A stretch of DNA of 42,350 bases from Elusimicrobiaceae bacterium (GTDB lineage: Bacteria; Elusimicrobiota; Elusimicrobia; Elusimicrobiales; Elusimicrobiaceae), in contig JAGCWX010000026.1 in NCBI GenBank assembly GCA_017961585.1, positions 1 to 42,350 of the forward strand, written 5' to 3'. This document shows, one piece after another, positions 29,606 through 34,279 of this stretch. A program made the position numbers and the translations under genes. The notes beneath the pieces were generated by a model. That model had not been told where the DNA came from and did no database searches. It was given only the letters and a program-made list of their open reading frames with translations. The stretch's first letter is position 1. Every line of letters begins with the position of its first letter.

Positions 29606-29638
29606 AAAAATCCCCCGGTTTGCCCGGGGGATTTTTTT
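29606..29638. terminator. Bidirectional terminator, pilin / tldE-like
   Basis: AAAAATCCCCCGG (29606-29618) pairs with CCGGGGGATTTTT (29624-29636) and is followed by further T. It serves both convergent genes and overlaps the TldE-like stop. Confidence 0.88.
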
Positions 29639-31298
29639 ACGGTTTTTTGACGAATGGGGGTTTGTCGGGCGTGGCGCGCGAAGGCGTCAGCTCCAACTCT
29701 TCCAGCAGTAAGCTGGGGGCAATGATACTTTGGGATTCTATCAAATCGCTTTGTGTATCAAAGTGGATCACGGCCGGGTTGTCCGCCGCGGCTACAATGT
29801 CGCGCAGGGAGCGCACATTGGGGTTGTTTACTTCCAGCCCGTATACCCATTGATCGGGCTTGCCGGGTTGCGTGTAAACACGCAACGCACGTTGCACGCG
29901 GCCGTTTTTGTCCGTGGGGAAATCGTACAAAATATATCCATATTCCAGCCCCCATTCCCGGCATTTGGCAAGCAGTTGTTCTTTAAGGGCTTGCGCGGTT
30001 TGCGGGTGCTTGGCTTCTACCCACAAGTTGGTAAGCTGTTCGCGCGGCAAGGATAACCCCGGCATCCGGGCGTGCCCGTTGCTGCGCGTGCTGTTTTTAA
30101 ACGGGCGGCTGCTGCGGGGCAAGTCCGTAAGTAAACCGTTTTGGGTCAAGGTTAGCTCGGTTGTTTGGACCCCTTCGTCATCCACGGGGGTGAACCCACC
30201 CAAAGGTTGCCCTTGATAGGTTTGCCACAAAGGTTTATCGTAAAGATCTACCGCGTTGGAAATTACCCGCATGCCTTGTTTTTGCACAAACGTGCCGCCT
30301 TCGCTATCGGGGCCGTTTTGTGTAAGCAGAACGCTGGTATTTTGCACATTGGGCACAAATAGGGCCTGCAAAAAATTCCCGGCGGCTTGCGGGCTTAGTA
30401 GCACCGGGCCCAGGTAGGTATCCCCTTTTACGGCGGTATACATATTTTGCAAATCGGTCAATAATTGGCGCGTGTGAGTTTGCAAGGTTTGCTCAACGGA
30501 TGCAAAATCTTGCACCCATATTTCACGGTCGTACGATTGTTTGTATCCGTCCTTATTGCGTAGTTTGGCAATCCAACGGATGGTAAACATGGGTTGCGCG
30601 TATTGGTAAAATCCGCCCAAGCTATTTAGATAATATGTTTCTTTTTGCAACGGCGTAACGATAATTCTAAATTCTTCCAAGAACGCAAACGCCTTGCCCT
30701 GGGCCGAGGCCGCCTTCACCCAGTTTTGCAAATCCTGCACATTGTAGGGCGGCATGGGGGAAATTTCTTGCACGTACGAAGCTTGCGGCTGCGGGATAAA
30801 ATCCACTTTAGGGGCTTGCTTGTCGGACGTTTTGGTCCGTTTGTAGGATTCTTTTTGCTGATACGTTTCCGAAGCAAATACCGCGGCCTGATCCGTTAAA
30901 TCCCACAAGGTTTGGCGGAGGCCTTCGTAACTTTTTGCCACCCCGCGTTCATACTGCGGCCGGTAGTTATACCGGTTGTTGTATTCGTTGTGACGGTAAC
31001 CTAAACTGTCGTGCTGGGGGGTGCCCATATCCACCCAAGCATACGCGATGAGCAAGGAGTCTGCTTGGTCCTGGGGATATAGCTCCCCTAAAGAGGCAAG
31101 CACCTTGGGTGCATTGGTAAAATTGACCAATTTGTAAGCCACATAAAAAATTTTCGGTGCCCCGGGGATTTTTAATTTTTGAAGCGAGCGGGCCATTTCT
31201 TTTTGCATGGCTTTGAAGTACATATTATCGGGCAATTTTTCTGCCGCTTGCGCCCCTACGGCGCATAACAATAATAAACAAAGTAATATTTTCTTCAT
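29637..31298 (-). CDS. Exported TldE/PmbA-like protein
   Basis: A 553-residue protein with a signal peptide (MKKILLCLLLLCAVGAQA). The C-terminal half has the TldD/PmbA fold pattern (MRVISNAVDLYDKPLWQTY, GFTPVDDEGVQTTELTLTQN, RSNGHARMPGLSLPREQLTN), but no HExxxH, as expected for the non-catalytic TldE half. Start ATG 31298 follows GGAGGG; an in-frame upstream ATG at 31484 lies inside the TldD-like gene and would destroy the signal peptide. It begins just after the TldD-like stop. The classical pair acts in the cytoplasm on microcin and CcdA, so export is unusual. Confidence 0.75.
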   Translation of the reverse strand: MKKILLCLLLLCAVGAQAAEKLPDNMYFKAMQKEMARSLQKLKIPGAPKIFYVAYKLVNFTNAPKVLASLGELYPQDQADSLLIAYAWVDMGTPQHDSLGYRHNEYNNRYNYRPQYERGVAKSYEGLRQTLWDLTDQAAVFASETYQQKESYKRTKTSDKQAPKVDFIPQPQASYVQEISPMPPYNVQDLQNWVKAASAQGKAFAFLEEFRIIVTPLQKETYYLNSLGGFYQYAQPMFTIRWIAKLRNKDGYKQSYDREIWVQDFASVEQTLQTHTRQLLTDLQNMYTAVKGDTYLGPVLLSPQAAGNFLQALFVPNVQNTSVLLTQNGPDSEGGTFVQKQGMRVISNAVDLYDKPLWQTYQGQPLGGFTPVDDEGVQTTELTLTQNGLLTDLPRSSRPFKNSTRSNGHARMPGLSLPREQLTNLWVEAKHPQTAQALKEQLLAKCREWGLEYGYILYDFPTDKNGRVQRALRVYTQPGKPDQWVYGLEVNNPNVRSLRDIVAAADNPAVIHFDTQSDLIESQSIIAPSLLLEELELTPSRATPDKPPFVKKP

Positions 31299-31299
31299 C

Positions 31300-32988
31300 T
31301 TATTTTCCCTCCGCAAACGGGGGTGGCAATACCGGGGGTTTCGTGCCGGACTTGCTTGCCTTCTCCAGTTCCAACCGCCGCAACAATACGCTAGGGGCAA
31401 TGCTGGAAACCGGCACCCAGCCCGATTCCGCCCCGCATTTACCGTTGAAAATTCCATAATCATCTGCCGCTGCCAGCACTTCATGGAAGCTGGCCAACGG
31501 GGTTCCCACCATATCTACGCCGCGGACCACTTCTTTGCGGCCGTCCGGGTAGAGGCGGTAAATCAAAGTAGGGGTGAGTTTGAAGGTTTGCGGCAGGAAG
31601 GTTTCCGTAAGGGTAAATCCGCCGGATAAATCCTCTATAATAATCCCGTAAGGTTTATTTTGTTTTTTGATTTCTTGCAACAATTGTTTTTCCAGCTCGT
31701 CATACGAAACTGTTTGAGAAGCGAGGGTGCGGGTGTTCCCCATACGGGCGACGGGGCGGCTCCATTTATCGCTGCGGCCGTGCCCGTTGGAAGCGGCAAA
31801 CCCTTTAATGGGGCTGGCGTTCATTAAGAAGCCCTTAAAAACGCCGTTTTCCACCAGGGTAACCGGGCGGGCTTTTACTCCTTCGTCGTCGTAGAGGTAA
31901 AATCCGCGTAAAGGGATGTTGTTAAAATAGGGCAGGGTGGCGTCGTCCACAATGGTAAGCAGGGGGGAGACAATCTCTTGCCCTAATTTATCGGTAAACG
32001 TTTTGCCGAAGGAATCTTCTTTTTGGCGGTGGCCTTCCGCACGGTGGCCCAATACCTCGTGCACAAATACGGCCATGGCTTTGTTTTTCAAAATAGCCGG
32101 CACGGTAATGGGTTCCATTTCGGGCGCTTTAGAAAGGGCTTCTAATTCCTGTAAACTTTGCTTTACATCCGCCAGGAGTTGTTCCTCGCTAGGCAGTTCC
32201 TTTTCTTGCAATACGTTATAGTTGTTTAAGCGGGAGATGTTGGTCCCGTCGGCCGTTTTGCCTTCTAAAGAATAACTCAAAGTAACCAAGCGGATGGGGG
32301 TTTTAAGGCGCGTACCTACGGAATCTACAAAGTAGCGGCTGCCCTGTTCAAACGTAAAAATAAACTCACTTTTTAGCACGTAGGGTTTGTTTTGCGCCAG
32401 GGTAGAGGCCTTAAGTAGCAGCTGTTTGATACGTTCCGTATCAAAAACAGCTATGGGGGTATCCTCGCAAAAGGTTTCCCGCGGGGGGAAGGCAAAATCG
32501 GGCGAGTCGTCCGCACGTTCGGAAGCGGTTTGTACGTCGGCCTGTACGCGGGCAAAATCCTGCTGGGCTTTTTCAGCCGCTTCCTGCGTGGCGCGCCAAA
32601 CGGCGGTGGTAAATGCTTGGGTATCCGTGGCAAAATCCGGCAGATAACTGGTGGGTTGTTCGTAATCGGTTTCGTGCTGTTTAAGCGTGCGGGTGTTGTC
32701 CATCTGCGTGCTGCCCGCGCGGGGGAGTACTTTTAACAAAGTATTGTGATAAAGCAGATCCCGCACCACCCCGTTATTTTCTACAACTAAGGTGTAATCA
32801 AGACTGTCCGTATATGTATAAGACATATAATAAATAGGCGGGTTTTGCTTTTTAAGGGTTGGAAAACTACGCTTAAGCTCAGCCGAGAGGAGTTGCACCG
32901 GCTTTTGCTCGTTGATATTACAGGTATTTTGGGCCCAAATGTTGTACGGGAGCCCGGCCAAAATCAGGGAAAAAATTATTTTTTTCAT
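31300..32988 (-). CDS. Exported TldD-like metalloprotease
   Basis: A 562-residue protein with a signal peptide (MKKIIFSLILAGLPYNIWA). The TldD-type zinc motif is HEVLGH (310-315), continuing RAEGHRQ as in the family. Further family blocks: FGKTFTDKLGQEIVSPLLTI, YLYDDEGVKARPVTLVENG, SNGHGRSDKW and RPVARMGNT. The N-terminal domain is less conserved. It should form the catalytic half of a heterodimer with the next gene product and act in the periplasm. Leaderless start: TGC plus TAAAAT (33000-32995) ends 6 nt before the ATG. Confidence 0.8.
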   Translation of the reverse strand: MKKIIFSLILAGLPYNIWAQNTCNINEQKPVQLLSAELKRSFPTLKKQNPPIYYMSYTYTDSLDYTLVVENNGVVRDLLYHNTLLKVLPRAGSTQMDNTRTLKQHETDYEQPTSYLPDFATDTQAFTTAVWRATQEAAEKAQQDFARVQADVQTASERADDSPDFAFPPRETFCEDTPIAVFDTERIKQLLLKASTLAQNKPYVLKSEFIFTFEQGSRYFVDSVGTRLKTPIRLVTLSYSLEGKTADGTNISRLNNYNVLQEKELPSEEQLLADVKQSLQELEALSKAPEMEPITVPAILKNKAMAVFVHEVLGHRAEGHRQKEDSFGKTFTDKLGQEIVSPLLTIVDDATLPYFNNIPLRGFYLYDDEGVKARPVTLVENGVFKGFLMNASPIKGFAASNGHGRSDKWSRPVARMGNTRTLASQTVSYDELEKQLLQEIKKQNKPYGIIIEDLSGGFTLTETFLPQTFKLTPTLIYRLYPDGRKEVVRGVDMVGTPLASFHEVLAAADDYGIFNGKCGAESGWVPVSSIAPSVLLRRLELEKASKSGTKPPVLPPPFAEGK

Positions 32989-33059: not shown

Positions 33060-33132
33060 GCTGAGGTAGCTCAACTGGCAGAGCAACGGTTTTGTAAACC
33101 GTAGGTTGTGGGTTCGATTCCCATCCTCAGCT
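33060..33132 (+). tRNA. tRNA-Thr (anticodon TGT)
   Basis: Complete cloverleaf. Acceptor GCTGAGG (33060-33066) pairs with CCTCAGC (33125-33131). D arm GCTC/GAGC, anticodon arm ACGGT-TTTGTAA-ACCGT with TGT at 33093-33095, and T arm GTGGG-TTCGATT-CCCAT. The 3' CCA is not encoded. Confidence 0.97.
33116..33132 (+). repeat. att-like direct repeat, tRNA copy
   Basis: The last 17 bases of the tRNA (GATTCCCATCCTCAGCT) recur exactly at 33301-33317. They flank 168 bp of structured, non-coding DNA. The arrangement is like attL/attR at a tRNA 3' end. Confidence 0.85.
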
Positions 33133-33300
33133 AAAAATTTTCCGCTTTACGCGGGATATTTTAGCTTGGCAACGCACCCACTGCTGGGTGCGCGATTGGG
33201 AAGCGAAGGGCGGAGCGATGTTTTTGTTTGAGTGAAACGAAAGGCAAAAACCGCGAGCCCCGGCCCGGAAGAAATTTCCGTCAGGAAATTTAGTGTAGGG
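33133..33300 (+). other. Structured non-coding segment after tRNA-Thr
   Basis: 168 bp between the tRNA end and its duplicate, with no plausible gene. It holds at least four hairpins: CCGC-TTTAC-GCGG (33142-33154), CGCACCCA-CTGC-TGGGTGCG (33173-33192, perfect), a large stem GTTTTTG (33220-33226) with CAAAAAC (33245-33251) enclosing GTTT/AAAC, and AAATTTCC-GTCA-GGAAATTT (33272-33291, perfect). This could be a small mobile element, a processed RNA or a repeat common after tRNAs in this genome. It would be transcribed from the tRNA promoter. Confidence 0.6.
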
Positions 33301-33317
33301 GATTCCCATCCTCAGCT
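33301..33317 (+). repeat. att-like direct repeat, distal copy
   Basis: Exact copy of the tRNA-Thr 3' end (17 of 17). The TerC-family gene begins 20 nt downstream. Confidence 0.85.
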
Positions 33318-33337: not shown

Positions 33338-34279
33338 ATGGAACCGGTAACTTCTGCTGTTTCACTATGTATGTGGGTGGCTTTTTGGGTCACGGTGATC
33401 ACGGCCCTGTTTATTGATTTAACTGTGCTTAACAAGCACCACGGGCATGTGTCTATTAAAGAAGCCGCCACAATGGTTTGTGCGTGGGTATCGTTGGCCC
33501 TTGTATTTGGCGGGGCCATTTGGTTGTTTGAAGGGCCTCAACACGCGCTTGCCTTTTACACGGGCTACGTGTTGGAATATTCGTTGTCCATTGACAACAT
33601 GTTCGTTTTCATCCTTATTTTTAGCTATTTTGCCATTCCGCACGATTTGCAACCCAAGGCGTTACTGTGGGGGATTTTAGGCGCGGTTGTGTTGCGTTTC
33701 CTTTTTATTTTTGTAGGGGTGCAGCTTATTTCCCTTTTCTCTTGGACGATTTACGTTTTCGGCGCGCTGCTGATCTTTACGGCACTTAAAATGCTTTTGC
33801 AAAAGGAAGATGACCGGTTTGATCCCAGCCAATCGCTTCCGCTTAAAATTTTGCGTAAGTTTATGCCGCTAAAAACCGATTATCACGGCGAGAACTTTTT
33901 TGTGAAAGAAGGCATTAAGTGGTTTGCTACGCCCTTGTTTGCGGCGGTGCTTGTGATTGAAATGAGCGACCTTATCTTTGCGGTGGATTCTATCCCGGCG
34001 GTATTATCTATCACACAAGATACGTTTTTGGTGTACTCCTCTAACATTTTTGCTATTATCGGGTTGCGGTCGTTGTATTTCCTGCTTTCGGGTATGGCGG
34101 GCAAATTCCCCTATTTAAAATACGGCATTTCGGTCATTTTATTCTTTGTAGGGGTTAAAATGCTGCTTTCCCACTTTGTAAAAGTGCCGATAGGGGCTTC
34201 CCTGGCGGTGATTGTGGGGATCTTGGCGTTGTCTATCCTGGCGGGGAAGATTTTCCCACCGAAAGCGGCCCAAAATTAG
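33338..34279 (+). CDS. TerC-family membrane protein (Alx-like)
   Basis: A 313-residue inner-membrane protein with about eight membrane spans. The family signatures are LEYSLSIDNMFVFILIFSYF and VIEMSDLIFAVDSIPAVLSI, with the conserved Asp residues of the two repeats. The TerC/Alx family is linked to Mn2+ export and to tellurite resistance; the length fits Alx. There is no strong ribosome-binding site. It may be transcribed by read-through from tRNA-Thr, because no promoter is obvious in between. In E. coli, alx is controlled by a Mn2+ riboswitch of the yybP-ykoY class; the hairpins upstream here do not match its consensus by eye. Confidence 0.88.
   Translation: MEPVTSAVSLCMWVAFWVTVITALFIDLTVLNKHHGHVSIKEAATMVCAWVSLALVFGGAIWLFEGPQHALAFYTGYVLEYSLSIDNMFVFILIFSYFAIPHDLQPKALLWGILGAVVLRFLFIFVGVQLISLFSWTIYVFGALLIFTALKMLLQKEDDRFDPSQSLPLKILRKFMPLKTDYHGENFFVKEGIKWFATPLFAAVLVIEMSDLIFAVDSIPAVLSITQDTFLVYSSNIFAIIGLRSLYFLLSGMAGKFPYLKYGISVILFFVGVKMLLSHFVKVPIGASLAVIVGILALSILAGKIFPPKAAQN

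Follow-up and report, generated by a model that had tools for sequence, protein, structure and literature searches.

The locus described here raises the question of what kind of DNA lies between a tRNA gene and an exact second copy of that gene's 3′ end. The window, a 42,350-nucleotide stretch from an Elusimicrobiaceae bacterium, carries an intact host gene for tRNA-Thr(TGT) on the plus strand at 33060..33132 (ARAGORN; Rfam tRNA, 72.7 bits), and the 185-base stretch directly 3′ of this gene forms the element. The final 17 bp of the gene (33116-33132) recur as an exact direct repeat at 33301-33317, which constitutes the right end of the element, with 168 bp between the two copies; counted from the TTC of the T loop, the repeat covers tRNA positions 57-73. 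No further occurrence was found in the window at up to two mismatches and the shuffle expectation was 0.00, so a lone chance repeat was rejected. The original prediction, made from the letters of the window, had described these bracketing repeats, two perfect 8-bp stems with 4-nt loops (33173-33192 and 33272-33291) and a segment without a gene. All of this was borne out: the loops read CTGC and GTCA, and the sole ORF of at least 60 aa across the segment is a 130-aa reverse-strand frame that also takes in the end of the tRNA and the beginning of the downstream gene. The latter (33338..34279, plus strand), which we take to be terC-like, provided the synteny anchor by which empty and occupied sites were compared. 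Upstream, two adjoining large ORFs on the minus strand (29637-32988; 615 and 562 aa) presumably resemble a TldD/PmbA-type pair.

All parts of the window copy lie on the plus strand. P0, a terminator-like hairpin with A/T flanks (33133..33163), separates the tRNA from the rest of the element. It is missing at the empty site L056, where a plain T run is found, and the empty sites L062, L063 and L067, among others, have terminator-like hairpins of their own. The position of guide part b′ follows (33163..33172); in the family b′ is antisense to the acceptor 3′ strand (approximately tRNA 65-70), and in the window's own sequence it is poor (AGCT..GG only). The P2 hairpin (33173..33192; 8-bp stem, loop CTGC) divides b′ from guide part a′ (33197..33207), which is antisense to tRNA 54-64 at 10 of 11 positions, with a mismatch at A58. 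The core hairpin P3 (33208..33260) has the closing stem GGGC/GCCC and the conserved motif AGCGATGTTTTTGTTTG (33214-33230) ... AAGGCAAAAACCGCGAG (33241-33257). The P4 stem (33264..33300; family helix 3, placed by eye here) joins CCC at 33264-33266 to GGG at 33298-33300 and encloses the P5 hairpin (33272..33291; family helix 4; 8-bp stem, loop GTCA). Taken alone, the window segment folded moderately better than shuffled sequences (RNA z −2.3, DNA z −3.0); the hairpins by themselves are therefore insufficient for a claim, and the structural case rests on the relatives.

The host genome (98% complete, 36 contigs) was searched with the window segment, as the original prediction had proposed, and further copies were indeed found at other tRNAs. 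At least five relatives are present: four lie behind tRNA-Leu(CAA), tRNA-Val(GAC), tRNA-Ser(GGA) and tRNA-Val(CAC), and one copy lies away from any tRNA. A covariance search gave seven matches in this genome (G000), of which six places were read; the core match in the window (G000:C11:33206-33304) scored 97.6 bits. The tRNA-linked copies share the order tRNA, terminator-like hairpin, P2 (CTGC), T-arm antisense, P3, P5 (GTCA) and a sense copy of the tRNA 3′ end, which stops after the T stem in the tRNA-Val(CAC) copy. The copy without an adjoining tRNA (L007:1500; G000:C26, approximately 57.6 kb) has a guide that by eye fits a tRNA-Asp approximately 1.4 kb upstream, and an ORF judged by eye to be ankyrin-repeat-like lies between the two. 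ORFs near displaced copies were likewise judged by eye to be ankyrin-repeat-like and TPR-like.

Matches in a wider DNA search were obtained in 38 of 61 genomes, the host included. A covariance model of P3-P5 (R1, built on 45 sequences) matched in 64 of the 66 genomes (species) of the host genus with 0-24 copies each, the counts being lower bounds (up to 62 candidates scored per genome, under stricter filters). G011, G075, G030 and G015 are rich in copies, and G077 and G082 gave no match. A pattern scan of named genomes gave at least 118 stretches among the matches listed, the titles of which belong to Elusimicrobiota MAGs, MAGs named only as bacteria and Patescibacteria; the Patescibacteria groups among the matches listed are Saccharibacteria, Moraniibacteriota, Parcubacteria, Kaiserbacteria, Wolfebacteria and Paceibacterota. 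Fifteen genomes picked for having a match (12 titled Patescibacteria) held 1-11 copies each. Among 286 sampled genomes from the phylum of one Saccharibacteria MAG, 23 matched, six at E ≤ 1.4e-16 and the rest weakly. Many of the Patescibacteria copies lie behind tRNAs, with antisense stretches that by eye are cognate; a tRNA was found by script for 10 of 15 copies in 14 loci, and the P2 loops there can differ. In one Saccharibacteria locus (L191:101-640) a tRNA-Val-like gene is followed by several more copies of TCCCTCAGCG within approximately 540 bp, which suggests repeated insertion at one tRNA. Using Rfam 15, tRNA was the sole family at or above the gathering threshold in the window, and only tRNA reached its gathering score in five element loci searched at E values up to 5; a known Rfam RNA family was therefore rejected for the tested loci. 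The family was not found in the literature searched (preprints and most subscription papers lay outside its scope, and a prior description is possible). It is apparently undescribed, and it occurs in two phyla, Elusimicrobiota and Patescibacteria.

A catalogue of 205 distinct copies was used to analyse position. Among the 189 with at least 250 nt of upstream sequence, 153 lie no more than 200 nt downstream of a tRNA on the same strand and none follows a tRNA on the opposite strand. The distance from the tRNA end to the core start has a median of 87 nt (quartiles 83-92, range 50-149; n = 160, tRNA within 200 nt). The other 36 of the 189 have no tRNA within 200 nt, which counts against an element that seeks tRNA 3′ ends; those inspected are second tandem copies, long forms, and displaced or decayed sites. 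Tandem copies also occur in the family at large. The upstream flanks of L049 and L013, before displaced copies, have in common a similar stretch (AAACTACA..CCGTA..) in two species, perhaps a decayed tRNA. One core was found behind tRNAs of 30 isoacceptor labels, and this observation bears on the ordinary explanation of such a locus, namely the scar of a tyrosine-integrase island at a tRNA gene, with attL and attR left after gene deletion. The direct repeat of the tRNA 3′ end found here is the classic geometry of such an island, but one target per lineage was not what was found, and an island scar does not account for cognate antisense stretches and covarying hairpins. The scar was rejected because one core occurs with many isoacceptors, and we consider it very improbable.

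Compensatory changes were counted in two alignments, A1 (56 rows, Elusimicrobiota) and A2 (45 rows, both phyla). Double changes were found in 22 of the 30 tested pairs of A1 (209 cells, compared with 54.1 when shuffled) and in 16 of the 25 pairs of A2 (177 cells, compared with 43.8), in structures taken from the same alignments (with one RNAalifold pair omitted for A1). This origin gives the structures some advantage, yet the excess over shuffles is very large. The cell count was reached by none of 500 shuffles for either alignment and the number of pairs in A2 by nine of 500, while slid structures dropped to 6-36 and 28-44 cells. One-sided changes were rare (5 and 8 cells in A1 and A2, respectively). 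Covariation thus supports the helices, as in a functional structured RNA, and the hairpins P2, P3 and P5 covary in typical copies. The 1440 pairs of the P2 stems comprise 1384 Watson-Crick pairs, three G-T, three A-C and 50 other mismatches; G-T and A-C are equally rare, so that P2 favours no RNA strand. The corresponding counts for P5 (eight G-T and 59 A-C) are less clear because a fixed mismatch lies just beneath the stem. P3 contains two U-G pairs that are invariant in 45 of 45 rows, and in 95% of 153 copies folding is better for the plus than for the minus strand, mostly because of the shared core. In P3 of L050, L108, L112 and L122 two A-U pairs are changed to G-A/A-G (CGAG or TGAG opposite CGA), a change that resembles a tandem sheared-GA swap. 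The acting form may be RNA or single-stranded DNA, both of which fit the folding data.

The original prediction had offered a minimal element, a scar or a structured RNA, and had hung its case on second copies, covariation and a spacing kept in relatives. Second copies exist, the helices covary and the spacing in relatives is near-constant, so the window copy is no lone scar; a minimal element and a structured RNA are both compatible with these findings.

The main rival to a mobile element is a tRNA-directed regulatory RNA. A putative structured RNA, transcribed together with its tRNA or downstream of it, would act on that tRNA, its guide pairing either with the 3′ strand of the tRNA, which would block the tRNA, or with the downstream copy, which would leave it free; the role of such an RNA would be to adjust or monitor the folding of the tRNA or the maturation of its 3′ end. 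The same-strand position in 153 of 189 copies, the near-constant spacing, the strong covariation, the invariant U-G pairs of P3 and the plus-strand folding, this last being mostly an effect of the shared core, are consistent with such an RNA, whereas P2 does not favour an RNA strand. For a needed regulator, copy numbers of 0 to 24 among sister species (lower bounds) are unsuitable, as are empty orthologous sites, decayed copies and the terminator-like hairpin before the window copy. We regard a regulatory RNA as a tentative and somewhat unlikely explanation.

The main feature of the element is a stretch between the hairpins that matches the T arm of the adjoining tRNA in antisense and that tracks the tRNA in other copies. 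The guide has two parts, a′ against tRNA 54-64 and b′ against approximately 65-70, with P2 between them at the T-stem/acceptor boundary. For specificity, the test set comprised the 146 copies in which P2 could be recognised and the core began less than 140 nt after the tRNA end, and one random tRNA was drawn for each other isoacceptor. Among 27 isoacceptors the guide alone was strictly best for its own tRNA in 94 of the 146 copies, and the guide together with the right-end copy was best in 123, where approximately five are expected by chance. The mean T-arm match was 10.0 of 11 for cognate and 8.0 of 11 for non-cognate tRNAs, a high baseline that reflects the likeness of the T arm across tRNAs. 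Counted by position in 130 copies (16 were skipped, and picking the register that matched best biases the mismatch counts downwards), mismatches of a′ numbered two of 129 or 130 at tRNA 54-56, 35 of 130 at 57, 40 of 130 at 58 and 11 to 22 at 59-64, rising to 99 of 127 at 65. When the tRNA and the element's own right-end copy were compared as partners of the antisense stretch, the tRNA was the better match in 86 of 130 copies, the two were equal in 39 and the tRNA was the poorer match in five. Against a role of the guide in targeting, b′ is weak in the window copy and some copies, for example L153, have no clear b′. The match between guide and target, of the kind found in IS200/IS605-type guides, is one of sequence complementarity, and it suggests that base pairing picks the place or the partner of the element.

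At the right end, a clean run from tRNA position 56-58 onward was found in 50 of 146 copies and a run that begins later in another 50, often after changed or extra bases between approximately 59 and 65, a split that is rough because some Ser tRNAs are misnumbered. Of the remaining copies, 30 have no run of at least 8 nt, which again speaks against insertion with a copied tRNA end, and 16 were not judgeable. The variable region faces the point at which P2 divides the guide. In L303, L305 and L109 the right repeat continues through the flank, b′ and half of P2.

Six Elusimicrobiota loci (L101, L204, L205, L141, L157 and L225) have a long form, in which a domain of approximately 260-290 nt lies at the same spot between the guide and P3 and has inverted ends like GGGTTGGCAAGG/CCTTGCCAACCC (L101:70-340; L157:3050-3317; L204 on the minus strand). 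Two of these domains were folded, both very strongly (L101, z −11.7; L157, z −6.9). By BLAST, the L101 domain is approximately 70% identical to those of L157, L225 and L141; relative to the element its orientation is opposite in L157 and L225 and the same in the others. No gene was recognised in the sequences of the six long forms or in the ORF lists of L204, L141 and L225, where a few frames overlap the edges, and a gene-bearing autonomous version was rejected, the domain being folded and without a recognised gene. No element larger than these is known to us. A different extra hairpin domain, GCCCGCAAA..TTGCGGGCGTATCAATAAGC, lies between P3 and P5 in L013 and L034 (two species).

Extended right repeats, tandem units and a long-form domain found in both orientations could also be produced by a self-propagating DNA palindrome. 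Template switching at the tRNA terminator hairpin would then duplicate the 3′ end in inverted and direct form and the core would spread as copies recombine, with no dedicated enzyme or guide function and with complementarity as a by-product of copying. That almost every stem pair is Watson-Crick, with 8 one-sided cells beside 177 double ones in A2 and 5 beside 209 in A1, agrees with this. A sequence-specific P3-P5 core kept across two phyla does not, since template switching alone is not expected to preserve the core or to move it between isoacceptors, and we consider a bare palindrome unlikely.

Presence and absence were compared at the tRNA-Thr(TGT)-terC site. The 30 best terC loci were processed by script and nine were set aside, among them the window's own occupied site, which was read by eye. 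L054 is occupied, and 20 loci have the tRNA before terC and no intact core, with a gap of 17-104 nt in 16 and 160-791 nt in four. Further terC loci were chosen for a core near terC. The P3 closing stems at this site are GGGC/GCCC in the window and G066, GGC/GCC in G018, GGCC types in G083, G084, G087, G001 and G079, and GACC/GGTC in G010; the repeats at L054 and L082 are decayed. Across species the site is therefore empty, decayed, or occupied by the same or other subtypes. In a tree of 61 cores, which has few columns and many unresolved forks, the genome label required 46 changes compared with a shuffled mean of 46.4, i.e. no clustering and so no sign of within-genome bursts. The isoacceptor label required 42 changes compared with 49.9, and none of 300 shuffles was as low. 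Clustering by isoacceptor and not by genome favours the regulatory RNA and counts against a mobile element; it looks more like cores tending to stay with one tRNA kind, through prolonged residence there or through transfer to that same tRNA. A well supported clade (97/94) of 23 cores spans Leu, Thr, Gln, Ser, Tyr, Val and Asp tRNAs.

The core (P3, P4/P5) is common to copies that follow many different tRNAs; typical copies add a cognate two-part antisense and frequently a copy of the tRNA 3′ end, and presence at a site differs between species. From this, from the paralogues in the host genome and from the tandem copies we infer that the family is mobile and non-autonomous, and how it might move. 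The explanation that we prefer, to which we give an even chance, is a new kind of small, gene-free, folded, non-autonomous element that locates tRNA 3′ ends through base pairing. The two-part guide would pair with the tRNA 3′ strand, either as single-stranded DNA or, at the gene or its transcript, as RNA, and would hold the strand on either side of the T-stem/acceptor boundary. Strand exchange might then occur near positions ~59-65, where many right ends have extra or changed bases, and would leave the element behind the tRNA with the tRNA 3′ end repeated, so that the tRNA would survive. The acting enzyme would be encoded by the host or in trans.

Candidate enzymes were sought by Pfam searches of draft genomes. 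Neither the host nor G011, which has 24 copies, yielded a Y1 transposase (PF01797), reverse transcriptase (RVT_1, PF00078) or Cas1 (PF01867) domain; among same-genus genomes these were found in three of 25, two of 25 and two of 16, respectively. IS110 Transposase_20 (PF02371) was found in none of 16 same-genus genomes and TnpB (PF07282) in none of 25 genomes, 16 of them of the same genus. A resident enzyme of these five kinds as the required mobiliser was rejected, since the domains were not found in the host or G011; this counts against the preferred element, and its acting enzyme may be of another kind. To our knowledge, XerC/D and other tyrosine recombinases are to be expected in every genome. 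The reverse transcriptase of a retron, DGR or group II intron was likewise not found in G000 or G011. Also against a mobile element, no match was obtained in phage and plasmid collections with one 148-nt Leu element as the query or in viral contigs with two exact patterns, searches in which diverged copies could be missed. A bolder form of the same explanation, in which a protein-free folded RNA or single-stranded DNA of 170 nt would clamp the tRNA 3′ strand with its two guide arms, direct its own insertion and rewrite its guide for each new tRNA using a host enzyme only, is possible but doubtful.

Several known systems share single features with the family. When integrative islands and phages insert at tRNA genes, the tRNA is regenerated and a duplicate of its 3′ end remains; the family differs in being gene-free and approximately 170 bp long, with many isoacceptors per core and with antisense as well as sense copies. 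Casposons integrate at the tRNA-gene 3′ end with a duplication of about the same length and are large and gene-bearing; no Cas1 was found in the host or G011, and we know of no cognate guide in casposons. IS200/IS605 elements of the IS608 type and their non-autonomous derivatives are reported to have subterminal secondary structures and to choose their target through pairing with element sequence (PMC6006769, PMC5934647), and in both respects they resemble the family. The IS608-type guide is a tetranucleotide, whereas that of the family is approximately 17 nt in two parts; the family also often repeats the tRNA 3′ end at the right, and its host has no detected Y1 transposase. In IS110, a structured non-coding bridge RNA is reported to programme the target (PMC11208160). 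This RNA is comparable in size to the family element, but no Transposase_20 was found in 16 same-genus genomes, both guide parts of the family pair with the same strand and no separate donor loop was recognised. REP/BIME and other palindromic repeats are reported to be short, palindromic, multicopy and possibly mobilised in trans (PMC8266576), whereas the family is tRNA-associated and carries tRNA-specific sequence, and no Y1 family protein was found in the host. In an archaeon, a palindromic motif CGTTA(N)9TAACG lies at a fixed distance behind about half of the tRNAs (PMC5217627); a core, a guide and a tRNA-end copy are not described in the part of that account consulted. No family known to us joins a folded, conserved core to an antisense of the adjoining tRNA in two parts, and none was met in Rfam or in the literature searched.

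If guide pairing drives insertion, the family would choose its target through a tRNA complement carried in two arms and would add to the RNA- or single-stranded-DNA-guided systems. If it instead acts on the tRNA, it would be a widespread family of tRNA-specific antisense RNAs in Elusimicrobiota and Patescibacteria, for which we know of little experimental RNA biology. The alignments yield a covariance model that can be searched by others, and the family offers a direct test case for the persistence of small gene-free elements.
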